Positions 6,248-57,173 of a DNA stretch of 64,000 nt are shown one piece after another. Positions within the stretch are counted from its first letter, which is position 1, and every line of letters starts with the position of its first letter. The position numbers were made by a program, and so were the translations under genes. Source of the DNA: Aminobacterium mobile DSM 12262 (GTDB lineage: Bacteria; Synergistota; Synergistia; Synergistales; Aminobacteriaceae); contig NZ_JAFZ01000002.1 of the NCBI RefSeq assembly GCF_000526395.1, forward strand, positions 126,501 to 190,500. The letters run 5' to 3'. The notes beneath the pieces were generated by a model that saw only the letters and a list, made by a program, of their open reading frames with translations, did no database searches and was not told the origin of the DNA.

Positions 6248-7069
6248 TTATATGTGTTTCCTCCAAAAATCAGAAGGGACAAATATGCCTGCTTTTTCCT
6301 TTATTTTTGGAAGGCCGTTAAGAAATGGAGATGCATCGTACCCAACTCTCCAAAAATACAAGCCATGAGCCGGCACCGTCATTCCTGATTCCCTACGACT
6401 CCCTTTCCCATTAAGTAAGTCTCTAATCCACTCTGGACTCTGCTTGCCTTTTCCTACAAGGTCTAGACTTCCTATAAGAATGCGAACCATGTTCATAAGA
6501 AAAGCGTTACCGCGAATAGTAACAATCGATAGTTGCCCATTTTGATGCCAGCGGAAAGTGTAAATGGTACGGATAGTATTGTCTGGACACTCTTTGATTG
6601 GACAGAACGCCCTGAAATCGTGGGTCCCTTTTACGTACTCGCAAGCCTTTCCCACGGCTTCTTTATCCCATTTCCAGCGATTCCACCACGCCCGTTCTCG
6701 AAGATACGGAGGGAAAGCAGGGCCATGCCATATATAATATCGGTATTCTCTCCATAAAGCACTAAAACGAGCGTTAAAATCGTCAGAAACATGATAAATA
6801 TTCATAATACGTACCGTTTCTGGCAAGTAATAATTGATAGCTAACAATAATCTGCCAGGATCCCATCCGACAGGAAGCTCAAAGGAAACAACTTGTCCTT
6901 TCCCATGAACACCGGCATCAGTTCGACCAGCAGCAAAAACAGTGGTGGGCTCACCAAATATTTTGCCTATAGCTTCTTCCAGAGATTGTTGAACGGTAGG
7001 GACTCCTGATTGTCGCTGCCAACCACAGAAAGCGGTTCCATCGTAACTTATTGTGGCAGCATAGTTCAT
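6248..7069 (-). CDS. truA: tRNA pseudouridine synthase A
   Basis: A 273-residue TruA, which makes pseudouridine at positions 38-40 of the tRNA anticodon stem. The catalytic aspartate is D51 in GRTDAGVHGKGQV. The N terminus (ISYDGTAFCGWQRQ) and the later RNAFLMNMVRIL-like stretch (GNAFLMNMVRILIG) are typical. Length is normal. Its ATG overlaps the end of ecfT by 4 bases, as in the rplQ-ecfA1-ecfA2-ecfT-truA order of Firmicutes. Confidence 0.97.
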   Translation of the reverse strand: MNYAATISYDGTAFCGWQRQSGVPTVQQSLEEAIGKIFGEPTTVFAAGRTDAGVHGKGQVVSFELPVGWDPGRLLLAINYYLPETVRIMNIYHVSDDFNARFSALWREYRYYIWHGPAFPPYLRERAWWNRWKWDKEAVGKACEYVKGTHDFRAFCPIKECPDNTIRTIYTFRWHQNGQLSIVTIRGNAFLMNMVRILIGSLDLVGKGKQSPEWIRDLLNGKGSRRESGMTVPAHGLYFWRVGYDASPFLNGLPKIKEKAGIFVPSDFWRKHI

Positions 7070-44375: not shown

Positions 44376-45121
44376 TATGCCCTCCCTTCCGGCAAACGGT
44401 ACGCCGCTAATAAATCTGGAGTGAAATACCCCTGCTCATCATATATGAAAAGGGGAGGTTCTATAGTCACACCAGTCCCGGCAGACCGCACCGCATCCAC
44501 CAGAATCATAGATGCTTTTTTATCTGGACGGGGATGAACCAGACGAATTCGCTTCGGAAGTATATTATTCTGGGTAAGATTCCACAATAGCTCTGCTGCC
44601 CGTTGAGCTCGAAATATCATATAGAGATGACCTCGATTCTTTAAGAGGAACCGAGACGCCCGCACTACATCGAGTAACGAACAATAAAGTCCCTGCCGAG
44701 CAGTCGCATCACTGAATGATTTTGTCCATCGGCTCCGCGCTGGCTCGTCGTAAGGGGGGTTAGTGACCACCACGTCAAAAGACTGAGGCGCATACATCTT
44801 TTTTACTTCCCGAAGATCTCCAAGAGAAAAACGCACACGCTCCTCCAATTCGTTTTCAAGAGCGTTGCGTTTGGCTAAATCAACAAGTTCTTTCTGTATC
44901 TCAAGTCCCTCTATACGTATGCTTTGAGGAAGACGAAGGGCCAAAAGCAATGATATGACACCCGTAGCACTCCCTAGTTCAATGAGGTTATCTCTTCTTC
45001 TCGCCTGAACAAAAGAGGCTAATAGAATAGTATCCACCGTTACCCGAGGACCATCTACCGGCTGCCACGCTTTTAAGGCCCCATAAAGGACATTATCACA
45101 GGTTGCTTTTATTCCTTCCAT
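44375..45121 (-). CDS. tRNA1(Val) adenine-N6-methyltransferase-like protein
   Basis: A 248-residue class I methyltransferase. The SAM loop is around LIELGSATGVISLLLALR, and the catalytic motif IV is NPPYDEPAR, typical of N6-adenine methylation. It resembles TrmN6/YfiC, which modifies A37 of tRNA-Val. It overlaps smc by 13 bases and precedes rsmI, a common pairing. The exact substrate is inferred. Confidence 0.85.
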   Translation of the reverse strand: MEGIKATCDNVLYGALKAWQPVDGPRVTVDTILLASFVQARRRDNLIELGSATGVISLLLALRLPQSIRIEGLEIQKELVDLAKRNALENELEERVRFSLGDLREVKKMYAPQSFDVVVTNPPYDEPARSRWTKSFSDATARQGLYCSLLDVVRASRFLLKNRGHLYMIFRAQRAAELLWNLTQNNILPKRIRLVHPRPDKKASMILVDAVRSAGTGVTIEPPLFIYDEQGYFTPDLLAAYRLPEGRA

Positions 45122-48100
45122 TCGTCCAGACTCACTCCTATAACTTTTGAAAGGCCAGGTTCCGACATCGTAACACCATAAAGGACATCAGCTCGTTCCA
45201 TAGTGCTCCTCCGGTGGGTCATAGCCAATATCTGTATATACGCTGCATAATCTGTAACAAGATCTACAAATCGGAGCAAATTATATTCATCCAAAGCGGC
45301 ATCTACTTCATCCAAAATTGCGAGAGGGACAGCAGCCACTTCCATAGTAGCAAAAAGAAGGGCTATCGCCGATAAAGATTGTTCCCCCCCAGAAAGCTGC
45401 GTTAGGTTCTGTAGTTTTTTCCCAGGTGGTCTAGCATAAATATCAACCCCGGCTTCCCACAGGGAGAGGCCCTCTTCCATTTGAAGATGAGCTTCGCCTC
45501 CACCAAAGAGTCGTTGGAAAAGAGCATTGAATCGCTTATCGGTATTGACAAGAGCCTCTCCAAACACTTGTCCCACACGCCTGTCTGTATCTTGGATCAT
45601 TTCCTGCAATTCCTTTATTCCAGCGCGTACATCCTTCATTTGTTCAGAAAGAAAGGCAAGCCGCGCATTGAGAGATTCATGTTCAGAAAGGACGCCGAGA
45701 TCATACTCTCCCAATTCCCGTAGTTTCTTCTCTAGTCGTTTAACACCCGCTAATCCTTCGTCTCTCAAATCGTCAGGAAGAGCAAGAGACCCTGGATAGG
45801 GGTAGTTTTCTTCCCACAAAGAGGTAATCTGAGTGAGTTCTCCCTCTACGTTGTCAAGCTGCCGACGGCAATCACGTAGCTGTTCTTCACAATTTTGGCG
45901 AAACTGTATGGCATCTGCGTGACGCTGCACCAAAAAAGTTATCTTGTTATTTATAACAACCAGGTCGTCTTGCACTCTCTTCTCTTCTTTTAGCGCATTC
46001 CCCCGACGAGACCACACATGGTACGACTCTTTTCCAAGAGATTGAAGTCTGTCGAGATTTACCAAAAGATCCCCTGATACCTTCTCCCGTTCCTGTGTCA
46101 AATCGAGAAGCGTTCGCTCCATGCGCCGCACCTCCGAATCCATCCGTTCTACAAGGACGTGATGGGCTCGAACTTTTTCCCTCGTTATAGCGGCTTCGGC
46201 CTGGGCTGAGGAAAGCTTATGTTCCAGATCTGCTTCATCTGGTAAATCACCAAAATCCAGGATCATTTTTTCCAGTTCCTCGGAGTGAAAGATTATTTGC
46301 TCCGACAACGTTACATCCTGTTCTGCCTCTTTTTTAAATGCGTCTTCTTCCCTCTTCAAACGTTGTACTTCTTTGAAGAGGCTGTCTTTCCGAGCTATAA
46401 GTACTGAAAGTTCCTTCTCTATTTCTTGCTCCTGTTCGCAAAGTCCTGTTTTATGAAAAGCAACTTCTTGTTCCCGTTTTTCCGCTTCCCGTAATTCAGC
46501 AGAAAAATTTTTAAGAGCAAGACGTTCCTTTTCGAGATGATTGTTCAGTTCATCTATAAGAAGGCGCCGTTCAATAGCACCTCCAGAACGACGAAATTTA
46601 CCACCGCTCACACTTCCTGCGACAGTAAAAACATCTCCGTCAAGAGTCACTATGGGGAAAGAAGCACCTATACGGGCTAATTGGACACCCACATCATATG
46701 ATTCTATTATAAGAAGATCTCCAAGGAGGTGCCGCACTGCCGGGTCCCATGGTTCTTTTATAGAGAGCAAGTCTACGGCCCATCCTACAATTCCTTTATC
46801 AGAGAAATGAAAATTACGGTCAGGTGTGCGGGGATAACATCGTTCTAGCGGCAAAAAGGTCACACGGCCTGCTTTTCGTTCCTTTACAAGTTCTATGCCT
46901 TCGCGAGCCTCCTCCAGCGTTGAAACCAACAACCAGAACTGTCGGCCGCCAAGATACGCTTCCAGGGGCGACGCCAAATCACTGGAACACGTAAAAGCAT
47001 CAGCCACAAGAGTAGCCTTTATATTTAATTTTCCTAGTTTCCCCGCCGCTAATACAACACGAACTGGCTCGGGATAAAGTCGTTGTTCCGTGTTTTCATA
47101 AAGAGTTTCCAGCTGATTTTCCAGTTGGGTTACATTCCTTTTTGCAAAAGTTACAGAAGAGGCTAACTGCTGGCAAGAGGCGTAGACCTCTGCATGGAGA
47201 GCGGAGGTTTCTTCTCTCTGGGCCTGGAGATCCAAAAGCTTGCGTTGCTTATGTTCCAAGTCTTTCATAAGCTCTTGCAACTTTTTTTCTGCCTCATCGC
47301 GCTCTCGGAGACTCCCTTCCAAGGCAGCCTTTCTAGCCTTAAGACGTGCGTCTATACGATTTTTCTCCATTTCCAAACGAGCCACTTCTTCTCTGCATTT
47401 CTGACGTCGTTTTCTTTCCTCATGGAGAGATGTACGCAGTTTGGAAAATTCTTCAGAAATAGATGAAATAACCCCTTCTTTTTCTTTTAGCTCATTACAA
47501 AACGAAACATACGCTTTTTTCGTAACTGCAGTTTCGCCTCGTACCTCTTTGAGATTCCCCTCTAATATTTTAGTATCTTCAGCCAGAGAGCATAGTCTTT
47601 CTCGAGCTCCCTTAACAGAGAGGCCCACAGCAAAACATTGCCGATGAAGAGAGTCTCTCTGAGAATCCAACGCAACGAGAGTTTCGCCGAGAGATCGGCT
47701 ATTTTGTTTCAATCCCTCTATTTTCGATTGGTAAAAACGAAGACCATATTCCCATAGAGTTTCCCACTCTATGGCTTGCGCTTTCCGACTATCTACGCTG
47801 CTTACATGATGTTGTAAAGATACAATCTCTTTCTCAAGAAAAGTTCTCCTCAAAAAATAATAATCCCGTCGCCGCCCTTCAAGCTCATGGAGAATCCCCC
47901 TGGCTTCTTCAGCTATAGATACCAAGGGTAAAATTTCATCTCGACGCATTGTAAGTTCCAAAACAAGAGTTTGAAGCCTCGCTAGCTCATCTGTAGCCGA
48001 TTTAAGTTTCTGACTGGCATCCTCTCTTTTTCTTCTATATCGATCAATACCAAAGAGCGCTTCAAGAACTGTACGACGCTGAAGGGGCCTCTGCCGAATA

Positions 48101-48525
48101 GCTTCAGCTACTTCTCCCTGCCCAATAAAGGCAAATTGCTCACCTTCAAGATGCCATTCACGTTTAATCTCATCAAGGTCCTGAAGACGAATACGCACCC
48201 CATCAACAGAAAGAGTCGTCCCACTTTCTGGGGAGAACTCTCTTCTAATAGTACAAATCTGAGGATCTTCTCGCAAAGAGAGAAGGACCTCAGTTTCCCC
48301 AGCTGAAGGAACACTAACACTTCCCTGGAAAAGGAGGTCGCTCTGTTTGGTAATTCTCAGACGGTTAGGGCTCCCTTCTCCTAAGACCCAGCGCAACCCA
48401 TCGAGAATATTACTCTTGCCACTGCCATTAGGGCCTACAATGGCAGTGAATCCTGGAGAAAAAAGAAGTTCATGCTCTCCTCCAAAACTTTTAAATCCTT
48501 TAAGACGAAGCCGTTCGATAAACAC
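45109..48525 (-). CDS. smc: Chromosome segregation ATPase SMC
   Basis: A 1138-residue SMC. Walker A GPNGSGKSN is at 31-38, and two long coiled coils flank a hinge at roughly 505-655. The ABC signature LSGGEQ is at 1044-1049 and Walker B ILDEVDAALD near 1070. It forms condensin with ScpA and ScpB, which are not in the window. The start is GTG 48525 with a GGGAGG site, overlapping the rng end by 26 bases. Confidence 0.98.
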   Translation of the reverse strand: MFIERLRLKGFKSFGGEHELLFSPGFTAIVGPNGSGKSNILDGLRWVLGEGSPNRLRITKQSDLLFQGSVSVPSAGETEVLLSLREDPQICTIRREFSPESGTTLSVDGVRIRLQDLDEIKREWHLEGEQFAFIGQGEVAEAIRQRPLQRRTVLEALFGIDRYRRKREDASQKLKSATDELARLQTLVLELTMRRDEILPLVSIAEEARGILHELEGRRRDYYFLRRTFLEKEIVSLQHHVSSVDSRKAQAIEWETLWEYGLRFYQSKIEGLKQNSRSLGETLVALDSQRDSLHRQCFAVGLSVKGARERLCSLAEDTKILEGNLKEVRGETAVTKKAYVSFCNELKEKEGVISSISEEFSKLRTSLHEERKRRQKCREEVARLEMEKNRIDARLKARKAALEGSLRERDEAEKKLQELMKDLEHKQRKLLDLQAQREETSALHAEVYASCQQLASSVTFAKRNVTQLENQLETLYENTEQRLYPEPVRVVLAAGKLGKLNIKATLVADAFTCSSDLASPLEAYLGGRQFWLLVSTLEEAREGIELVKERKAGRVTFLPLERCYPRTPDRNFHFSDKGIVGWAVDLLSIKEPWDPAVRHLLGDLLIIESYDVGVQLARIGASFPIVTLDGDVFTVAGSVSGGKFRRSGGAIERRLLIDELNNHLEKERLALKNFSAELREAEKREQEVAFHKTGLCEQEQEIEKELSVLIARKDSLFKEVQRLKREEDAFKKEAEQDVTLSEQIIFHSEELEKMILDFGDLPDEADLEHKLSSAQAEAAITREKVRAHHVLVERMDSEVRRMERTLLDLTQEREKVSGDLLVNLDRLQSLGKESYHVWSRRGNALKEEKRVQDDLVVINNKITFLVQRHADAIQFRQNCEEQLRDCRRQLDNVEGELTQITSLWEENYPYPGSLALPDDLRDEGLAGVKRLEKKLRELGEYDLGVLSEHESLNARLAFLSEQMKDVRAGIKELQEMIQDTDRRVGQVFGEALVNTDKRFNALFQRLFGGGEAHLQMEEGLSLWEAGVDIYARPPGKKLQNLTQLSGGEQSLSAIALLFATMEVAAVPLAILDEVDAALDEYNLLRFVDLVTDYAAYIQILAMTHRRSTMERADVLYGVTMSEPGLSKVIGVSLDEWKE

Positions 48526-49999
48526 GAATTTTTGCCTCCCACTGCTCCATCTGTTCTACTTTACGCTCCACAAGATCCAACGTTCCTTGAACATCTAACC
48601 TGTATTTACTCCAAGCAAACTCCGGAGCTCCGGCAATGAAGATTTTTCGCCCAAACTCTTCCTCCCAAAGAAGAAGATATGTTTCTGCTATATATTGGGC
48701 AATAGCTGGATGAGCCTCAAGAAGCATGGCTTCTGATTTATTGGAAAGCGCAACTTTCCGTAAAAAGCGCTTGATATGCATAGCGACGCTATCCTCTTTA
48801 AGAACCCAACCATATCCACCACAAAAGGGGCAACCTCGGGTCATCACTGAACGGACATCGGGACGAGCCCGTTTCCTGGTAATCTCTACGAGACCAAGCT
48901 GGGAAACTCCAAATATTCTGGCTCGGTATCGATCGCTCTGAAAGACTTCTTCGAGACGCTTAAGAAGCTTTTGTCTATCCTCTTCATATTCCATGTCTAT
49001 AAAGTCGATCACAACAATACCACCGATAGCTCGGAGCCGAAGCTGGCGGGCTATTTCATCTGCCGCCTCCAGGTTGGTATCGAGGACTGTGTGACGAAGA
49101 TCCGTATCTCCTACGAATTTCCCTGTATTCACATCTATAACTGTAAGCGCTTCAGTATGGTCTATGATGAGATACGCTCCGGATTTTAACCACACTTTTC
49201 TATCGAGGGCTGTCTCTAGGTCTCTCTCTATGCCATAGAAATCAAAAATAGGGGTATTCCCCTGATATAGCTCTACCTCAGGAGCCCTGTCTTCCAAAAG
49301 CCTCACGAGGAAATCATTTACTTTTTCATACTCTTCTTCGCTATCAATAATAATCTCACTTACATCCCCAGTAAGCTCGTCACGAAGAACCCGTCCCACC
49401 AGACCTATATCCCGATAAATAAGGCATGGTGCCGACTGTACCTGAGCGTTATGCTTTATTTCCTCCCAAAGATCCTGAAGGTTATGAAGTTCATGCATTA
49501 ATACCTCTTCATCAACACCTTCTGCCGCCGTACGAATAATAACTCCATATCCATTGCCTTCATCTCTCAGTTTCTTGGCGAGGGCGCGAAGACGTTTTCG
49601 CTCCTCTTCGTCTGTAATACGTTTTGAAACCCCCGTCTCCTGCCCCTCAGGAACAAATACAAGGTATCGTCCGGGGAGAGAAATCCTTGCTGTAACTCGA
49701 GCTCCTTTATTTTTACGAGCGGCCTTAACAACTTGAACCACTACTTCAATATTCGGTTTAAGGTCGAGTCCCTTGGCATCATTTAAGTAAAGAAAGGCAT
49801 TTCTACCATCGCCTAAATTTACAAAAGCCGCATGTATTCCAGGCAACACACTATCCACTCGGGCCTTATATACCTCTCCAGTTTTTTGTCGCTCCCACAT
49901 TCGCTCAATAAAGATATCCACAAGGCGGCCATTTTCAATAATAGCCACTCTCATCTCTTCCGGGTCGACGATGTTGGCCACGATCTTTCTATCAGTCAT
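48500..49999 (-). CDS. rng: Ribonuclease G/E
   Basis: A 499-residue RNase G-type endonuclease that trims 16S rRNA and degrades mRNA. An S1 domain is at about 37-105. The catalytic Asp residues are D289 (TVIDVNTGKFVG) and D332 (VIDFIDMEYEED). The zinc link is C390-PF-C393. There is no C-terminal degradosome scaffold, so it is closer to RNase G. Its ATG overlaps the previous stop codon by one base. Confidence 0.97.
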   Translation of the reverse strand: MTDRKIVANIVDPEEMRVAIIENGRLVDIFIERMWERQKTGEVYKARVDSVLPGIHAAFVNLGDGRNAFLYLNDAKGLDLKPNIEVVVQVVKAARKNKGARVTARISLPGRYLVFVPEGQETGVSKRITDEEERKRLRALAKKLRDEGNGYGVIIRTAAEGVDEEVLMHELHNLQDLWEEIKHNAQVQSAPCLIYRDIGLVGRVLRDELTGDVSEIIIDSEEEYEKVNDFLVRLLEDRAPEVELYQGNTPIFDFYGIERDLETALDRKVWLKSGAYLIIDHTEALTVIDVNTGKFVGDTDLRHTVLDTNLEAADEIARQLRLRAIGGIVVIDFIDMEYEEDRQKLLKRLEEVFQSDRYRARIFGVSQLGLVEITRKRARPDVRSVMTRGCPFCGGYGWVLKEDSVAMHIKRFLRKVALSNKSEAMLLEAHPAIAQYIAETYLLLWEEEFGRKIFIAGAPEFAWSKYRLDVQGTLDLVERKVEQMEQWEAKIRVYRTASS

Positions 50000-50652
50000 T
50001 AAACTACCCCCTCACCTCTTATAAATTGAGCTGGTAAACGAGGAGGATTCTTTTGAAAAACAAGGGGTTCAAGATTCCCTTCGTTCCATTTTCCCACAGT
50101 GGTCCGTACAAGTTTAACGTCAGCCCACCCTTGTATAAGGCCTATTCGCTCTAACTCCTTTATTAAAGCGCCCGGGCCTAAGCTGTAGGGATCAGAAAAA
50201 ACGCACTCAGCAAAAGGGGAACAGAGCGTCCAGTTGAGTAGTTTCTCTGGAAAAAAAGTTTGATCCTCCAGCTGGCGTACTAATTTCGGCAATGAGTTTT
50301 CGGAACGAAAACCTATAAGATATCCTGAAGCATTGCAGCTTTTACTAATGGAAGGTCCTTCGTAAATAGCACCACCTGTAATAGTGAAAGCAGATGGAAG
50401 AGTTTTATTCCAGCTTTCTAAAAAGTCATCATTCCAATTCCTCACCCAAATGTCAGCAGGTTCCGAAAGAGCTATGATCCCCACCGGAAGCTCTGGACCT
50501 AAGCTCACTCTTGGTCTGGGAGAAAATCCTTCTGTAAGGACAAAATCCAAACCTGCCCTTCTTCCTGCTCGATAAAGCGTTTGAGGCATAGAGATATGAG
50601 AGATAAAACACCCTCGTCCCCGTTTTGAGTAAGTGATTCTCACCCGGAACAT
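49999..50652 (-). CDS. TIGR03936-type radical-SAM-linked protein (DUF2344)
   Basis: A 217-residue protein starting MFRVRITYSKRGRGCFISHI, followed by GLDFVLTEGFSPRPRVSLGP and PVGIIALSEPADIW. This is the TIGR03936 family, nearly always beside or fused to a TIGR03960 radical SAM protein. Its function is unknown. The start is ATG 50652, overlapping the stop of the radical SAM gene (TAATG). No signal peptide or metal motif is seen. Confidence 0.88.
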   Translation of the reverse strand: MFRVRITYSKRGRGCFISHISMPQTLYRAGRRAGLDFVLTEGFSPRPRVSLGPELPVGIIALSEPADIWVRNWNDDFLESWNKTLPSAFTITGGAIYEGPSISKSCNASGYLIGFRSENSLPKLVRQLEDQTFFPEKLLNWTLCSPFAECVFSDPYSLGPGALIKELERIGLIQGWADVKLVRTTVGKWNEGNLEPLVFQKNPPRLPAQFIRGEGVV

Positions 50653-52487
50653 TAGTGAACGCCTCCCTGCGACCATTGACAGCCATAAGACTGCCAACCG
50701 CACCCATGACAATGAGACCAGCGACAATCAGGCGTTAAAAGACCTTGTATGGCCTTTTCTCGTTCCCTCCAAAGGAAATCGCGGGATACCCCTGTATCTA
50801 TATGGTCCCAAGGGAAACCTTCTTTCTCTTCGCGAGATCGCAAATTAAAGGAGCTAGGATCTATTCCCTTCTCCTCAAAAGCCTCGAACCAACGCTGGAG
50901 AGAAAAGGTCTCACTCCATCCGTCAAAACGAGCCCCTTTCTCCCATGCTAAAGCAATAACTGAGGCTAAACGCCGATCTCCACGGGCAAAAACACCTTCT
51001 AAGAAGCTTTGTTCCGGCTCATGATATTTAAGAGAGATTCTTCGGTTATAGATCTTACTTTTCAAATATTGTCCTTTCTGCCGTAGTTCTTCTATAGAAT
51101 TTTGAGGTTCCCACTGGAATGGGGTATGGGCTTTCGGGACAAAACCTGCTACAGACACTGCTATATTTGTTCTTCTCTTCCATGATTTCCCGATGGAGAG
51201 TGCGTGAAGGGCAATATCCACGATACCATCGAGATCTTGTTCCGTTTCGGTAGGTAACCCCATCATAAAATAGAGCTTCACGCGATCCCATCCATGGCTA
51301 AAGGCAGCGTTAAGGGCGTATTCTATATCCTCCTCAGACACTCCTTTATTGATAACATTTCGAAGTCTCTGCGTTCCTGCTTCAGGAGCAAAAGTCAGTC
51401 CTCCACGGCGCATGACCTCAAGAGAAGCCGCTAAATCTACAGAAAATCTATCCATTCTGAGACTTGGCAAGCTGACTTTGATCCCTTTACCATTGACTAT
51501 TGGCTCGATCTTCTGAAGAAGCTCTGTTAAGCCAGAAAAATCACAGGAAGCAAGGGAAATAAGCCCCACCTCTTCCCAACCAGAGGTGTTTGTCAAGTTA
51601 GAAACCAAATTCACAATTTCTTCTACCGTCCGTTCCCTCACGGGACGATAAATAATCCCAGCCTGGCAAAAACGGCACCCACGAGAACACCCACGAAAAA
51701 TTTCGATGGGAACTCGATCATGAACCACATTAGCTGTAGGGACAATAAGTTCCTCTGGATAAAAAGAACCTCGAAAATCTTCCACTATTTGGCGTTTGAT
51801 CGGGAGAGATAACGCTGAAGAAAAATGGACAGCATCTCCATCCTGATGGGCATTTACAAGGGACGGAACATAAATTCCTTTTATATGAGCCAACGTCTCA
51901 AGACGTTGAGATCGTTTCATCCCCTTCGTTTCAGACAGAACGGCCACCATTTTAGGAAGTAAGATTTCCCCCGCTCCAAGACAAAAAGCGTCTATGAAAG
52001 GAGCGATAGGTTCTGGTGTTAAAGCCCCCGGCCCTCCAGCAAAAATTATTGGGTCTTGTTCTTTTCTTTCCTCTGAGTAGAAAGGAACGCCGCCTAAGTT
52101 CAACATGGTTAAAATATTCGTAAAACTCAACTCATATTGAAGAGTAAAACCCACAGCATCAAAAGCAGAAAGAGGTCTATCCGTCTCGATAGACCCCAAG
52201 GGGAGTTTATGGCTACGCAACAAGTGCTCCATATCCACCCATGGACAATAGGCCCGTTCTACGTCGGCAAGAGGCTGTTTTTTTAGAAGACTATAAAGAA
52301 TTTGGAATCCTACATAACTCATTCCTATTTCATAAACATCAGGGAATGCAAGGCAAAATCGCACGAGATCGCCCTTTCCCCCCTTCTTGGGAGCCACAGG
52401 CCCCCACTCGCACCCCGCATATCGAGAGGGGCGTGAAGTCTGGGCCAATAAAGGCCACAGCTCATCATCAAATTCCGGGAATTTCAT
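50652..52487 (-). CDS. TIGR03960-type radical SAM protein
   Basis: A 611-residue protein of the TIGR03960 family. The N-terminal 160 residues resemble a B12-binding-like fold (LAFPDVYEIGMSYVGFQILY, then IFAGGPGALTPEP). The radical SAM cluster cysteines are C267, C271 and C274 (RGCSRGCRFCQAG). The end holds a further cysteine group, C588, C593, C596 and C603, that may bind metal. The reaction is unknown. It is followed by its partner gene and rng, which hints at an RNA- or translation-linked role. Confidence 0.9.
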   Translation of the reverse strand: MKFPEFDDELWPLLAQTSRPSRYAGCEWGPVAPKKGGKGDLVRFCLAFPDVYEIGMSYVGFQILYSLLKKQPLADVERAYCPWVDMEHLLRSHKLPLGSIETDRPLSAFDAVGFTLQYELSFTNILTMLNLGGVPFYSEERKEQDPIIFAGGPGALTPEPIAPFIDAFCLGAGEILLPKMVAVLSETKGMKRSQRLETLAHIKGIYVPSLVNAHQDGDAVHFSSALSLPIKRQIVEDFRGSFYPEELIVPTANVVHDRVPIEIFRGCSRGCRFCQAGIIYRPVRERTVEEIVNLVSNLTNTSGWEEVGLISLASCDFSGLTELLQKIEPIVNGKGIKVSLPSLRMDRFSVDLAASLEVMRRGGLTFAPEAGTQRLRNVINKGVSEEDIEYALNAAFSHGWDRVKLYFMMGLPTETEQDLDGIVDIALHALSIGKSWKRRTNIAVSVAGFVPKAHTPFQWEPQNSIEELRQKGQYLKSKIYNRRISLKYHEPEQSFLEGVFARGDRRLASVIALAWEKGARFDGWSETFSLQRWFEAFEEKGIDPSSFNLRSREEKEGFPWDHIDTGVSRDFLWREREKAIQGLLTPDCRWSHCHGCGWQSYGCQWSQGGVH

Positions 52488-52508
52488 AAAATTCCTCCCC
52501 GCAGAAAT

Positions 52509-53618
52509 CTATTCATAATCTTTAATTGTTGAAAGATATACACTTACAACAAGAGCTACGGCCACTGTCACTGCAAGAAGAGAGCTGCCTCCATAACTTA
52601 AAAAAGGGAGGGGAAGCCCCGTTACGGGAAGAAGGCCCATGCTCATCCCTATACTTTCAACAACTTGAAACCATATCCATGCAGAAAGAGCTGCAACGAG
52701 AACCTTTCCACGTATATCTTTACATCGAAGTCCTGCATCGATTATCTTCCAAAAGACAAGACAAAAGAGCGTTATGACCAAAAGAGCTCCTACAAATCCA
52801 AACTCTTCTGCATAAACGCTAAATATAAAATCCGTATGAGGTTCAGGTAAAAAACGCAATTTGCTCTGGAGACCTTGAAGAAACCCCTTCCCCAACAGCC
52901 CCCCAGATCCAACGGCAATACGTGATTGAATAACGTTATAGCCTGCTCCTAAAGGATCTAAAGCTGGATTTATAAAAACAAGAAGCCTTTTCTTTTGATA
53001 CTCCTTTAAAAAAAAACATCCTACAGGGAGCAGCATCATTCCTACCCCTGAAAGGGTTAAAGTATAACGTTTAGGCGCTCCAGCCACAATAAGAGAAACG
53101 AAAACCATAAGACCATATACTATGGTACTCCCTAAATCTGGCTGCACGAATATCAATAGACCTGAAATAGCAGCAATCCCCAATCCACCTATATATCGAG
53201 AAGCGGTGGTTGGGGGGTAGCGACAAAGGTGCTTTGAAAGGACAAGAGCTAAAGCTATTTTACCGACTTCAGCAGGTTGTAGGCGCAATGGGCCTACACT
53301 CAACCAGCTCTGTGCACCTTTCACCGTAAGCCCCATAAGAAGCACTATCAACAACAAGACTATTGATAACCAATAAATAGGGTATGCCCAACGAAGTAAA
53401 CGTCGATACCCTATTTTGACTACTACAAAGAAAACACCAGAAGAAATAAGACCCCAAACAATCTGTCGAAGAGCAAAGCCCCCAGACCTACGACTTACGC
53501 TCATTTCAGCACTGTATATTGAAAGAACGCCAAGAACAAAAAGCATAACTACCGAAACCAAAAGCAGTGTATCCGCATGTTCCCAAAACTCTTTAAAAGT
53601 TAATTTTTTGTCGTCCAT
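52509..53618 (-). CDS. rodA: Rod-shape SEDS glycosyltransferase RodA
   Basis: A membrane protein of about 369 residues of the SEDS family (RodA/FtsW/SpoVE), which polymerises glycan strands in the elongasome with PBP2 (mrdA). About ten hydrophobic segments are visible. RLQPAEVGKIALALVLSKHL and GFVGALLVITLF-like stretches are typical, as is LPLPFLSYGGSSLLAV. ATG 53618 is used, but its ribosome site is close. An upstream start inside minE is possible. Confidence 0.93.
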   Translation of the reverse strand: MDDKKLTFKEFWEHADTLLLVSVVMLFVLGVLSIYSAEMSVSRRSGGFALRQIVWGLISSGVFFVVVKIGYRRLLRWAYPIYWLSIVLLLIVLLMGLTVKGAQSWLSVGPLRLQPAEVGKIALALVLSKHLCRYPPTTASRYIGGLGIAAISGLLIFVQPDLGSTIVYGLMVFVSLIVAGAPKRYTLTLSGVGMMLLPVGCFFLKEYQKKRLLVFINPALDPLGAGYNVIQSRIAVGSGGLLGKGFLQGLQSKLRFLPEPHTDFIFSVYAEEFGFVGALLVITLFCLVFWKIIDAGLRCKDIRGKVLVAALSAWIWFQVVESIGMSMGLLPVTGLPLPFLSYGGSSLLAVTVAVALVVSVYLSTIKDYE

Positions 53619-53628
53619 ACCCTTTTGT

Positions 53629-53889
53629 TTATGCTCTTCTCTTAATACGCACAACTGGTATATTTGCTACAAAAGCTACAGAGTGATCTGCTTTATCAAG
53701 ATCCATTTCGATGTTCTCCGCATCAATTTCCATATATTTGGAAAGGACATCGATCATATCTTTCCGCAGCTCCTCCATTAACATTGGGGAAATATCGGTT
53801 CGATCATGAATCAAAACAATCTGAAGCCGCTCTTTCGCAGCTTTCTTTGAGCCTTGCCGGCCAAACAGCTTTTGCAGTATTCCCATCAT
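53629..53889 (-). CDS. minE: Cell division topological factor MinE
   Basis: An 86-residue MinE. The N-terminal amphipathic start (MGILQKLFG) leads to AKERLQIVLIHDRTDISPMLM, the MinD-binding and strand region, then KDMIDVLSKYMEID. It drives MinCD oscillation so that division occurs at mid-cell. It follows minD by 22 bases. Confidence 0.95.
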   Translation of the reverse strand: MMGILQKLFGRQGSKKAAKERLQIVLIHDRTDISPMLMEELRKDMIDVLSKYMEIDAENIEMDLDKADHSVAFVANIPVVRIKRRA

Positions 53890-53911
53890 ATCGTCCTCTC
53901 TTCCCGGCTAC

Positions 53912-54715
53912 CTAGAAGCCCAATAACTTTTTGAGGCCGGAGAAAAATCCTAATCCTTCCTGGCTCTCTAGCTTCATGAAAGGGACATCATTACCAAGTA
54001 GCCTGCTGGCAATATTTCGAAAAGCCTGCGCTGCAGGAGATGAATCTCCATATGTGAGAGGTTCCCCTCTATTTGCAGACTTCACCACACTATCGTCATC
54101 AGGAACGATGCCTATCAATTCCACAGCGAGTACATCAAGGACATCTTGTACGTCAAGCATTTCCCCTTCTCGAACCATATTCGCCTTTACGCGGTTTATA
54201 ACAAGTCGAATAGGATTTTTCCCCATAGATTCAAGGAGACCAATAATACGATCTGCATCACGAACAGAAGGGACCTCTGGAGTGGTCACTACCAACGCTT
54301 CTGTAGCCCCAGCCGCTGCATTTTTAAAGCCACCTTCTATTCCTGCAGGACTATCAAGGAGAATAAAATCAAAATCTTCTTTTTTTAACATGTTACAAAG
54401 TTCTATCATTTGCTCAGGGTTGACGGCATCTTTGGTACGAGTCTGAGCAGCAGGAAGAAGGAAGAGATTATCAACTCTCTTATCCCGAATAAGAGCTTGA
54501 GGAAGACGACAAGTTCCTTCAATCACATCAATAAAATTATAAACAACTCTATTTTCCAAGCCCATAACAACATCGAGATTCCTGAGCCCGATATCAGCGT
54601 CGACTGCTACTACTTTATAGCCCTCCTTCGCCAGCGCAAAAGAGACATTAGCCGTAGTTGTTGTTTTACCAACACCGCCTTTCCCTGACGTTACAACAAT
54701 AACACGAGGCTCCAC
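53912..54715 (-). CDS. minD: Septum-site ATPase MinD
   Basis: A 267-residue MinD. The deviant Walker A is SGKGGVGKTTT near residue 10, then VDADIGLRNLDVVMGLENR and the C-terminal amphipathic helix (LGFFSGLKKLLGF). The start is GTG 54715 with GGAGG 7 bases upstream; a longer frame overlapping minC is rejected. It positions MinC on the membrane. Confidence 0.97.
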   Translation of the reverse strand: MEPRVIVVTSGKGGVGKTTTTANVSFALAKEGYKVVAVDADIGLRNLDVVMGLENRVVYNFIDVIEGTCRLPQALIRDKRVDNLFLLPAAQTRTKDAVNPEQMIELCNMLKKEDFDFILLDSPAGIEGGFKNAAAGATEALVVTTPEVPSVRDADRIIGLLESMGKNPIRLVINRVKANMVREGEMLDVQDVLDVLAVELIGIVPDDDSVVKSANRGEPLTYGDSSPAAQAFRNIASRLLGNDVPFMKLESQEGLGFFSGLKKLLGF

Positions 54716-54741
54716 GGGGATCCCTCCATTCCGAAAGTGAG

Positions 54742-55410
54742 TTATATCTTTAATTCCCGCACAAATAACGAGTCTTTTTCTAATGAAACTAGTACTGAGC
54801 GTCCCCACCATTCCATTGAACTATCCAGATAACTCCCAACTTTATGACCGAGACGCACCTGCTTCGCCTGAAAATCTCCTACAATTATACTTTGCCCTTC
54901 ATCGCCATCACTACCTGCATGAGCAAGGCCTTTTAATCGTCCCCATATACAAATATTTCCAGATGCAATAACTTCTGCACCATCATTGACATGCCCTATG
55001 ATAATTACATCTCCGCCATGCTCTATTCTCTGGCCGGATCGAAGAGAACGCACCAAGAAAAGAGTATCACAATTTTTCCCTTTTCGTGGAAAGAAATCTT
55101 TTGTCGGCTCTCCTATAGAGATTCCTACGGAACGCAAAAGATTCTGACTCTCAACGTCATATGTAATCCACGATGAGACCACTACTTTTCGCGCCCAAAT
55201 AAAGTCCGTAACGATTTTCCCGACAAGACTCTGACTAAGCTTGCGCCCCTGGAAATCAAGAATAACCTGTAACCCCAGTATGGCGCCGGCTTCTTTAGAG
55301 ATTCTTTCCAGCTCCAACATAATCTCTTCTTCAGCTAGTTCCTCTGGAATAAAAAGACGCAAACCTCCTCCTGTCCCTTTAAGTTGTATCGGCGTATGAA
55401 AAGTCTCCAT
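54742..55410 (-). CDS. minC: Septum-site inhibitor MinC
   Basis: A 222-residue MinC that blocks FtsZ assembly away from mid-cell. The C-terminal beta-helix is clear (LRSGQRIEHGGDVIIIGHVN, then AEVIASGNICIWGRLKGLAHAG in part); the N-terminal domain is less conserved. It starts 14 bases after mrdA. Confidence 0.95.
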   Translation of the reverse strand: METFHTPIQLKGTGGGLRLFIPEELAEEEIMLELERISKEAGAILGLQVILDFQGRKLSQSLVGKIVTDFIWARKVVVSSWITYDVESQNLLRSVGISIGEPTKDFFPRKGKNCDTLFLVRSLRSGQRIEHGGDVIIIGHVNDGAEVIASGNICIWGRLKGLAHAGSDGDEGQSIIVGDFQAKQVRLGHKVGSYLDSSMEWWGRSVLVSLEKDSLFVRELKI

Positions 55411-55424
55411 GGCCCCCTCCTCCT

Positions 55425-57173
55425 TTATTGTCGAGGTATGCTCTGAGACTGGCGTTCTACAAGATAAGCCAAAACTTCCCCCGATATGGGGGCTGCTACA
55501 GAACTACCATGTTCTCCTGCTTCTACAACAACAGCCACCACATACTGAGGTTTATCCGCAGGAGCATACCCTACAAAAAGGGCATGATCTGCCCCATGGG
55601 CATTTTGAGCTGTTCCAGTTTTACCTGCTACTGACACACTAAAAGTACCAGCCCGCCAACCAGTTCCACGCTTCACAACATCTTGTAATCCATCGTTGAC
55701 CAGCTTCAAATAGCTACTCGAAATCTGTAAATCTTTAGGAACTACAGCACTTTTTTCATTTAAATATGGGGTTACGAGCTTCCCTCCATTAGCAAAAACA
55801 GCGTACATTCTAGCAAGCTGGATGGGGGTCATAAGCAAATATCCTTGCCCTATAGAATAATTTACAGTATCTCCCTTGTACCACGACTCTTTCACGACCG
55901 CTTCTTTCCACTCTCGTCCAGCTCTGTTTCCAGAAAGCTCGCCAGGAATGTCTATTCCGGTAAGTTCCCCCACTCCAAGCTTTTGCCCCCACTTGGTAAG
56001 GTTGTCAATCCCAACTTTTATGCCTACCTGATAAAAAAATATATCGCAAGAATTTTTCAATGCTTCCTTCATATTCAAAGTTCCATGTCCTGTTCGTTTC
56101 CAACATCGGAACGTGCGACGCCCCAATTGAAAAGCTCCTCCACAGAAGTAAGTAGTTTTAGCGGTTATCTCTCCTTCAGAAAGAGCTGCCAGCGCAACTA
56201 ATGATTTAAAAGTAGACGCAGGCGGATAAACTCCTGCAATAGATCTATCCATCATCGGCCGTTCTGGGTCGTTGAGAAGAGATTTCCATTCTCGAGCCGA
56301 AACTCCCCAAGCCAATGGATTGTTATCGTATGAGGGGGCAGTGTAAAGAACGAGCACTGCTCCAGTATGAACATCGAGAGCAACTACCGCACCTCGTAAT
56401 CCTTTCATAAGGTCAGAAGCCAACCGTTGTGCACCAAGGTCTAAGGTCAGATAGAGGTTTTCCCCCTTTTGTGGAGGCCTGAAATCTATCTCCTGAATCC
56501 GCCTTCCTCGAGCATCTACCTCTATCGCTTCCACTCCAGGAGAACCACGAAGTATATTTTCATATGTATATTCTATGCCAGACTTACCAACCAAATCTCC
56601 ACCAACATAATCTCCTTCTCGTTTTACATGGAGTTCTTCTTCACTTATTTCACTTACATACCCTGTCACATTTGCTGTGAGAGCTCCGGAAGGATAGATC
56701 CTACGCCATACTGGAACTGGGAAAAGTTGGGAAGGGAATTCCGGATCCGCCAAAAGTTCAGCCATTTGAGTTAAGGTAAGATTTGAAACAATGCGTACAA
56801 CTCTATAAGGAGCCCAATATTGCCGCTTCACAGCAGCAGTAATTTCTTCTGGCAAAAGAGGAATCCCATGTTTACGAAAAATAGCTGAAGTACGCATGGC
56901 TAAATCTTCATTTTCAAAATCAAGAGGATATCCCATAATATCGAATGTACGTATGTTTATAGCGAGAGGAGCTCCATTTCTATCGAAAATATTCCCTCGC
57001 GATGGGGCTAGTCGAATAAATCGGAGTCTATTTCCTGCCGCAAGCTTTACATAGGTGTCTGCGTGAATGATCTGAAAAAAATAAAGAGCTATCACCAATC
57101 CACCCATGACGCAGAGCATTACGACTCTCCAGATACGGAGCCTCTTATCGATGTCACCACGAACATTAGACAT
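55425..57173 (-). CDS. mrdA: Penicillin-binding protein 2
   Basis: A 582-residue transpeptidase of the elongasome. One N-terminal membrane helix is at about 14-34. The dimerisation domain contains APSRGNIFDRNGAPLA. The active site is S320-TF-K323 in PPASTFKS, followed by a YSIGQGY motif and the KTG in VAGKTGTAQN. It is linked to mreBCD and rodA, its working partners. It overlaps mreD by 8 bases. Confidence 0.97.
   Translation of the reverse strand: MSNVRGDIDKRLRIWRVVMLCVMGGLVIALYFFQIIHADTYVKLAAGNRLRFIRLAPSRGNIFDRNGAPLAINIRTFDIMGYPLDFENEDLAMRTSAIFRKHGIPLLPEEITAAVKRQYWAPYRVVRIVSNLTLTQMAELLADPEFPSQLFPVPVWRRIYPSGALTANVTGYVSEISEEELHVKREGDYVGGDLVGKSGIEYTYENILRGSPGVEAIEVDARGRRIQEIDFRPPQKGENLYLTLDLGAQRLASDLMKGLRGAVVALDVHTGAVLVLYTAPSYDNNPLAWGVSAREWKSLLNDPERPMMDRSIAGVYPPASTFKSLVALAALSEGEITAKTTYFCGGAFQLGRRTFRCWKRTGHGTLNMKEALKNSCDIFFYQVGIKVGIDNLTKWGQKLGVGELTGIDIPGELSGNRAGREWKEAVVKESWYKGDTVNYSIGQGYLLMTPIQLARMYAVFANGGKLVTPYLNEKSAVVPKDLQISSSYLKLVNDGLQDVVKRGTGWRAGTFSVSVAGKTGTAQNAHGADHALFVGYAPADKPQYVVAVVVEAGEHGSSVAAPISGEVLAYLVERQSQSIPRQ

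Follow-up and report, generated by a model that had tools for sequence, protein, structure and literature searches.

On the minus strand of the 64,000-nucleotide stretch of Aminobacterium mobile DSM 12262 DNA analysed here (referred to, at its whole length, as the window), two overlapping genes encode a radical S-adenosylmethionine (SAM) protein and a smaller partner. The first product, p60, is a 611-residue radical SAM protein, probably of B12 type, in the TIGR03960 family (50652..52487), and the second, p36, is a 217-residue protein of the TIGR03936/DUF2344 family (49999..50652). The p60 and p36 genes share one base in a TAATG sequence, in which the TAA at 50654-50652 runs into the ATG at 50652-50650, and a second one-base TAATG overlap (TAA, 50001-49999; ATG, 49999) joins p36 to rng, a ribonuclease G/E family gene (48500..49999, minus strand; TIGR00757, 459.9 bits). 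Both overlaps had been pointed out in a preliminary description of this DNA, and both are seen in the sequence. The same description regarded the two proteins as a radical SAM pair. NCBIfam and Pfam scans of p36 found no radical SAM domain and returned TIGR03936/DUF2344 as the sole match; the locus thus encodes one radical SAM enzyme with an obligate, non-radical partner. In what follows, labels such as L104 denote loci and labels such as G035 denote genomes.

The p60 protein matches positions 4-601 of the 605 in the TIGR03960 profile, with a score of 709.7 bits against a cut-off of 462.3. Its Pfam content is Radical_SAM_N2 (PF19864) and Radical_SAM (PF04055) alone, and a Pfam scan of p60 found neither a methylthiotransferase nor a TRAM domain. 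The N-terminal PF19864 domain (residues 60-208; 51864..52310, minus strand) is predicted to be Rossmann-like and would be the cobalamin-binding part of the protein. C267, C271 and C274 (51666..51689, minus strand) lie in the PF04055 radical SAM domain and form the CxxxCxxC motif of class B enzymes, which holds the SAM [4Fe-4S] cluster. We aligned 40 p60 sequences, 67 p36 sequences and 36 sequences for a fusion model described below, all sets including the window and chosen, from the 80 loci surveyed below, for completeness and spread. The three radical SAM cysteines are kept in 40/40 p60 sequences, and for that reason we consider p60 to be under selection as an enzyme.

A second group of cysteines lies at the C-terminus (50679..50726, minus strand). 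Like the radical SAM cysteines, C588, C593 and C596 never vary (40/40), so that the first six of the seven cysteines listed in the preliminary description are constant and the seventh, C603, is present in the window at a variable spacing. A fourth cysteine of this kind, no more than 20 residues further on, occurs at 109 of the 110 loci examined, all but L103; a script detected it at 108, and L003 was read by eye. The cluster sits at the end of p60, where natural p60-p36 fusions begin their linker into p36, and is therefore near the p60/p36 junction. It is possible that it forms an auxiliary Fe-S cluster, a zinc site or an RNA-binding knuckle.

We modelled p60 within L104, a natural fusion from another species, using a 36-row alignment that includes the window p60. 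This relative is 45% identical to the window p60; the model has a pLDDT of 90.9 and a pTM of 0.91 over 823 residues. Its best match among solved structures is MgmA (TIGR04014), a B12-dependent radical SAM glutamine C-methyltransferase (Z 21.7, 370 residues aligned, model residues 27-494). The MgmA alignment (9ccb, 3-429) begins at model residue 27 and thus spans the N-terminal domain, and MiaB and RimO, which are not known as B12 enzymes, also align from the N-terminus of the model. Ten of the 18 matches ranked above the first TruA-type match belong to five B12 enzymes, namely MgmA, TsrM, TokK, OxsB and CysS. MgmA is also the second-best NCBIfam match of the window p60 (55.8 bits), at a score far below the TIGR04014 cut-off of 360 that would place p60 in the MgmA family itself. 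A Rossmann domain followed by a radical SAM barrel is the order in MgmA and the predicted order in p60. Unlike MgmA, p60 is longer, carries the C-terminal cysteine cluster and has a nearly constant partner. In the MgmA structure report, the Rossmann domain is described as holding cobalamin (PMC11796369); from the kinship with MgmA, and from the NCBIfam family name, B12 is the better guess for p60.

The partnership of p60 and p36

We surveyed 80 named loci, the best of at least 591 found with patterns derived from Synergistota. p36 is fused to p60 in seven of these (L085 being cut by a contig end) and lies within 300 bp of it in 69. Among the remaining four, p36 is 1.2 kb on in L032 and 6.6 kb on in L091, and L033 and L040 end less than 200 bp from p60. 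The loci span Synergistota, Bacillota, Atribacteria, Desulfuromonadales, another deltaproteobacterium, Nitrospirae, Calditrichaceae, Brocadiaceae, Chloroflexi and Acidimicrobiales, and conservation across so many groups puts the p60-p36 arrangement well beyond chance.

Co-occurrence was then counted in whole genomes, with the proviso that the genomes in each set are related, so that fewer independent events lie behind the counts than the numbers suggest. In Synergistota, TIGR03960 scores above its cut-off in 78/81 genomes and TIGR03936 in 74/81. Five of the seven genomes below the p36 cut-off (G024, G030, G043, G047 and G057) have a weaker p36 match adjoining p60. In G035 and G070, the remaining two, p36 is missing apart from a TruA-like match in G035, and p60 does not reach its cut-off either, being represented by fragments in the former and by a distant relative in the latter. 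In the phylum of Tissierella praeacuta (L046), for which 149 genomes were examined, p60 is above its cut-off in 137 and p36 in 136; all 12 genomes without p60 also lack p36 at this threshold, and 136 of the 137 with p60 have p36. The exception is G196, in which p60 starts at base 114 of its contig, with the contig edge on the side where p36 would be. The association gives a Fisher p of 8e-17, a value that is too small given the relatedness of the 149 genomes. In 60 genomes of the actinobacterial phylum to which the Acidimicrobiales locus L108 belongs, both families exceed their cut-offs in the same 29 and neither does in the other 31.

The two genes are also retained when they are unlinked. 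In three genomes of one Synergistota genus (G008, G013 and G027), p36 and p60 lie on different contigs and both are kept; in the separated loci (L126-L131) p36 remains beside rng, and different genes lie upstream of it. Near-perfect co-occurrence, retention when unlinked and the loose coupling of rng, described below, together identify p60 and p36 as a functional unit, with rng as a frequent neighbor. The p60 genes of G008 (L127) and G027 (L131) have rodA nearby.

The L104 model suggests, in addition, that p36 docks firmly on p60. A free p36, which makes up a quarter of the chain, would be expected to hold the pTM to about 0.75, and the observed 0.91 therefore points to a confident placement. 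The fold alignments of MiaB and RimO reach beyond p60 to residues 660-686 of the fusion, which belong to p36, as they might if p36 occupied the place of a TRAM domain. CysS, TokK and TsrM overrun in the same way, and since these comparisons concern end points only, we draw no conclusion about a TRAM-like position.

TIGR03960-like proteins other than p60 were encountered as well. Many Synergistota genomes contain TIGR03960 matches below the cut-off. G070, which lacks p36, encodes a shorter protein of this type (about 500 residues; L125:4851-6374, minus strand) beside an ftsZ-like gene, and its last 30 residues contain no cysteine; such shorter proteins may constitute a separate uncharacterised family. 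In the Tissierella phylum, G114, G116, G130, G202 and G231 have a second match above the TIGR03960 cut-off (466-541 bits) away from the main copy, and in G130 and G231 this second copy has one internal stop.

The predicted fold of p36

Residues 3-130 of p36 match TIGR03936 (82.6 bits; cut-off 71.9) and DUF2344 (74.9 bits; Pfam cut-off 23.8). We built an AlphaFold2 model of the window p36 from the 67 aligned sequences (mean pLDDT 90.6, pTM 0.86) and compared it with solved structures. The best 21 Foldseek matches are all Pus1, Pus3 or TruA chains, with E values reaching 7e-7 and TM-scores, normalised by query length, of 0.38-0.57. VIA-align superimposed 202 of the 217 residues on human PUS1 (Z 13.8, 3.2 Å) and gave Z values of about 8 for pseudouridine synthases that are more distant. 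In the L104 fusion model, residues 610-823 match TruA, Pus1 and Pus3 at Z 13-15. On this modelling we predict with high confidence that p36 has the TruA/Pus1 pseudouridine-synthase fold.

Sequence comparison agrees with the models. A p36 profile run against the PDB matched Thermus TruA weakly (E 0.022), second to an unrelated match, and profile-profile alignment with 12 TruA sequences gave a probability of 92.7 and an E value of 4e-7 over 55 columns. The TIGR03936 profile itself weakly matches the genomes' own TruA in Synergistota, with 15 such matches listed below the cut-off; all 14 that were fetched bear the GRTDxG motif. p36 thus resembles TruA, Pus1 and Pus3 in fold over nearly its full length and has detectable homology to TruA in sequence. 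A published paper already places DUF2344 beside PseudoU_synth_1 in the Pfam clan (PMC7955657), so the kinship with pseudouridine synthases is not wholly new, and what is added here is the full-length fold match together with the missing active site.

The loss of that site is evident in the loop at residues 42-58 (50479..50529, minus strand), which reads GFxPxP...G. Position 56, a proline in the window, corresponds to the catalytic aspartate of the TruA GRTDxG motif in a register that was set by hhalign and falls one residue outside its aligned block. Unlike TruA, p36 has no aspartate at this position in any of the 67 aligned sequences, where the column holds Ser (27), Pro (20), Ala (11), Gly (6) and one each of Gln, Thr and Val; in the fused proteins L049 and L079 an aspartate occurs three residues before it. 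By the catalytic-aspartate criterion, applied to the aligned sequences, p36 is not a pseudouridine synthase. The region of the old active site is nonetheless conserved, with G42 in 67/67, P45 in 65/67 and F43 in 63/67. In 63/67 sequences the residue opposite the second tyrosine of the TruA YRY motif is aromatic (Y 53, W 6, F 4); in pseudouridine synthases that tyrosine packs on the target base. We also considered whether p36 might replace TruA. This was ruled out, as a true TruA (PseudoU_synth_1) is encoded 43 kb away in the same genome, at window 6248..7069 on the minus strand (PF01416 match at window 6335-7057, contig C2:132835-133557 of G000).

RNase G and other neighbors

The preliminary description spoke of a widely conserved trio of p60, p36 and rng. 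Wide conservation across phyla applies to p60-p36, and rng proved to be optional. In 70 loci the sequence continues for 1.2 kb or more past p36; rng directly follows p36 in 37 of these and is absent from the other 33. RNase E/G (PF10150) occurs in 132 of the 149 Tissierella-phylum genomes; 13 genomes have p60 without rng and eight have rng without p60, one of the eight (G160) containing an rng fragment alone. These cases refute a fixed trio. rng and p60 are weakly associated (Fisher p 0.03, again too small a value for 149 related genomes).

Besides rng, the neighbors among the 80 loci include genes for the ribosomal proteins L21 (16 loci by motif) and L27, the Prp protease and Obg. L19, L21, L27, Obg, RbgA and TruA were recognised with motif patterns, and Pfam confirmed L21 with Prp in L070, L27 in L065 and a ribosome-type GTPase in L107, the others being motif-based. 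In loci without rng, p36 is followed by L19 and then RbgA in L053, L076, L105 and L106, and by L19 only in L082, as judged by motif; L21 comes directly after p36 in L064 and L089. The gene for threonyl-tRNA synthetase (thrS) adjoins the relocated p36, or is one reading frame away from it, in L126, L133 and L134. MiaB, the tRNA A37 methylthiotransferase, is encoded after rng in the same run of genes in L092 (9588-11021) and L099 (9889-11424); the additional p60-like matches behind rng in these two loci are these MiaB genes, and L093 has a p60-like match in the same place. As weak evidence, the neighbors point to translation and ribosome assembly.

In the window, rodA lies 21 bp upstream of p60 (52509..53615, minus strand; TIGR02210, 353.3 bits), preceded by minE, minD, minC and pbp2, and smc lies downstream of rng, all on one strand. 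The co-directional run pbp2, minC, minD, minE, rodA, p60, p36, rng, smc occupies window 45109-57173 and mixes genes for cell shape, division, RNA and chromosomes. Elsewhere, the upstream genes are rodA and min genes at some loci; at others they encode M50 or M23 peptidases.

Candidate activities of p60-p36

We favor the interpretation, to which we assign a probability of about one half, that p60 and p36 form a two-subunit RNA-modifying enzyme in which radical SAM methylation is combined with a TruA-fold subunit for RNA recognition. p36 would use the former pseudouridine-synthase cleft to bind a structured tRNA or rRNA, one nucleotide of which it would present to p60. As an enzyme of class B type, with an N-terminal Rossmann-like cobalamin domain, a [4Fe-4S] cluster on C267, C271 and C274 and the C-terminal cysteine cluster, p60 would reductively cleave SAM and most likely methylate an unactivated carbon of the nucleotide, with methylcobalamin as the donor. 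The computed results behind this proposal are the fold of the window p36, the fold of p60 in a fusion relative, the lost aspartate, the invariant cysteines, the co-occurrence of the two genes and the confident fusion model; from these we infer the binding of cobalamin and RNA, the methylation reaction and the kind of RNA. The p36 fold and the frequent ribosome and RNA gene neighbors strengthen an earlier suggestion, that the locus modifies either RNA or a component of the ribosome, and modification of RNA is our best guess.

Methylation of RNA by radical SAM enzymes is established for RlmN and Cfr, class A proteins with a single radical SAM domain and no cobalamin domain, according to a 2022 review (PMC9692996), and RlmN matches the L104 model at Z 11.0. 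MiaB and RimO (TIGR00089), radical SAM proteins annotated as acting on tRNA or on the ribosomal protein S12, match it at Z 16-17; p60 scores 20.2 bits with TIGR00089, against a cut-off of 251, and is not a member of that family. One candidate product was set aside. The cytidine derivative N-330 at 16S position 1404 has been described from Thermotoga maritima and many bacteria, and from archaea too (PMC2584109), yet no archaeal control genome has a TIGR03936 match, and N-330 is for that reason a poor fit.

Several observations weigh against RNA methylation by p60-p36. Some concern cobalamin: a Pfam scan of the window p60 found no B12-binding match, and eight of the 18 top fold matches are MiaB (five), MtaB, RimO and AprD4, none of which is known as a B12 enzyme, so that the L104 fold does not by itself prove B12 in p60. 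Others concern the models, in that the p60 model describes a relative rather than the window protein, the docking of p36 is inferred from a single number, the pTM, and none of the structures contains cobalamin, RNA or the two subunits together. The isoelectric points of p36 (median 6.84 over 67 sequences, 8.94 in the window) compare with 9.42 for 12 TruA sequences, and a near-neutral median lends little support to p36 as a general binder of RNA. In one Synergistota genome, G048, p36 is present although p60 gave no match, and the ribosomal neighbors could reflect expression alone. As for precedent, MgmA, the nearest p60 relative of known activity, methylates a protein; the 2022 review ties RNA methylation to class A enzymes (PMC9692996); and a search of the open-licence PMC literature found no B12-type radical SAM enzyme known to act on RNA.

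The kinship with MgmA leads to the alternative that survives best, which we nevertheless regard as unlikely: p60-p36 would modify a protein, most probably a ribosomal protein or an assembly factor, with p36 docking p60 on the ribosome or on pre-ribosomal RNA and p60 C-methylating a residue (compare MgmA and Mmp10, both of which act on methyl-coenzyme M reductase). MgmA is nearest to p60 in both fold and sequence, and its structure has a wide cleft for a peptide (PMC11796369). RimO, annotated as modifying S12, is among the fold matches, and L21, L27, L19 and ribosomal GTPases are among the neighbors. A TruA-fold partner would be a roundabout means of recognising a protein. Neither MgmA nor RimO is known to need one, and this counts against a protein substrate.

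Conservation of G42, F43 and P45 in the former active-site region of p36 raises the question of whether p36 is itself the principal actor, either as a scaffold in ribosome assembly or through new chemistry in the cleft near the GFxPxP loop, with p60 as its activator, modifier or partner. Chains of mitochondrial ribosome assembly intermediates do match the p36 fold (6sga_FB, Z 12.2; 9hny_FB, Z 12.1), and p36 is the gene that stays with rng where p60 has moved. Selection on p60 as an enzyme, evident from its radical SAM cysteines, argues the other way, as does the fact that no catalytic residue has been identified in p36, and we judge this explanation to be decidedly improbable. We give very little credence to action on a small molecule, lipid or cofactor, with the TruA fold as a relic used for protein contacts: OxsB, CysS, TokK and AprD4 are among the p60 fold matches and the p36 median pI is near neutral, but the presence of p60 above its cut-off in 78/81 and 137/149 genomes of two phyla, and the ribosomal and RNA neighbors, are unlike a secondary pathway.

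If p60-p36 is an RNA-modifying enzyme, it may, as we tentatively propose, install a nucleoside in the tRNA or rRNA of most bacteria of the Synergistota and the Tissierella phylum and, among the actinobacterial genomes sampled, of about half. Among the control genomes, Synechococcus elongatus and Thermotoga maritima match both families, with matches counted irrespective of the cut-offs. Escherichia coli matches neither family and Bacillus subtilis has no match to TIGR03936. Such a nucleoside would have gone unseen because of these two absences, which may also explain why families that are near-universal in two of the bacterial groups sampled have stayed uncharacterised. The preliminary description held that the reaction is undescribed, and this agrees with our searches: no published activity was found for TIGR03960, TIGR03936/DUF2344, COG5011, PF10105 or the operon in the open-licence PMC literature, which leaves subscription journals mostly outside, and the radical SAM genes of PMC6925170 belong to a bacteriocin cluster and not to p60-p36. 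DUF2344 turned up there in PMC7955657 and in a review on microRNA, and COG5011 in a microbiome paper; PMC10117853 offered nothing that bears on p60-p36. The families themselves are thus known; within the literature searched, to read them as a B12-type radical enzyme whose partner subunit is a degenerate TruA is new. With DUF2344 recognised as a degenerate form of TruA, the label "radical SAM protein of unknown function" gives way to a claim that experiments can test and that concerns a missing RNA modification. If cobalamin is confirmed, the supply of vitamin B12 would be linked to the maturation of ribosomes or tRNA.

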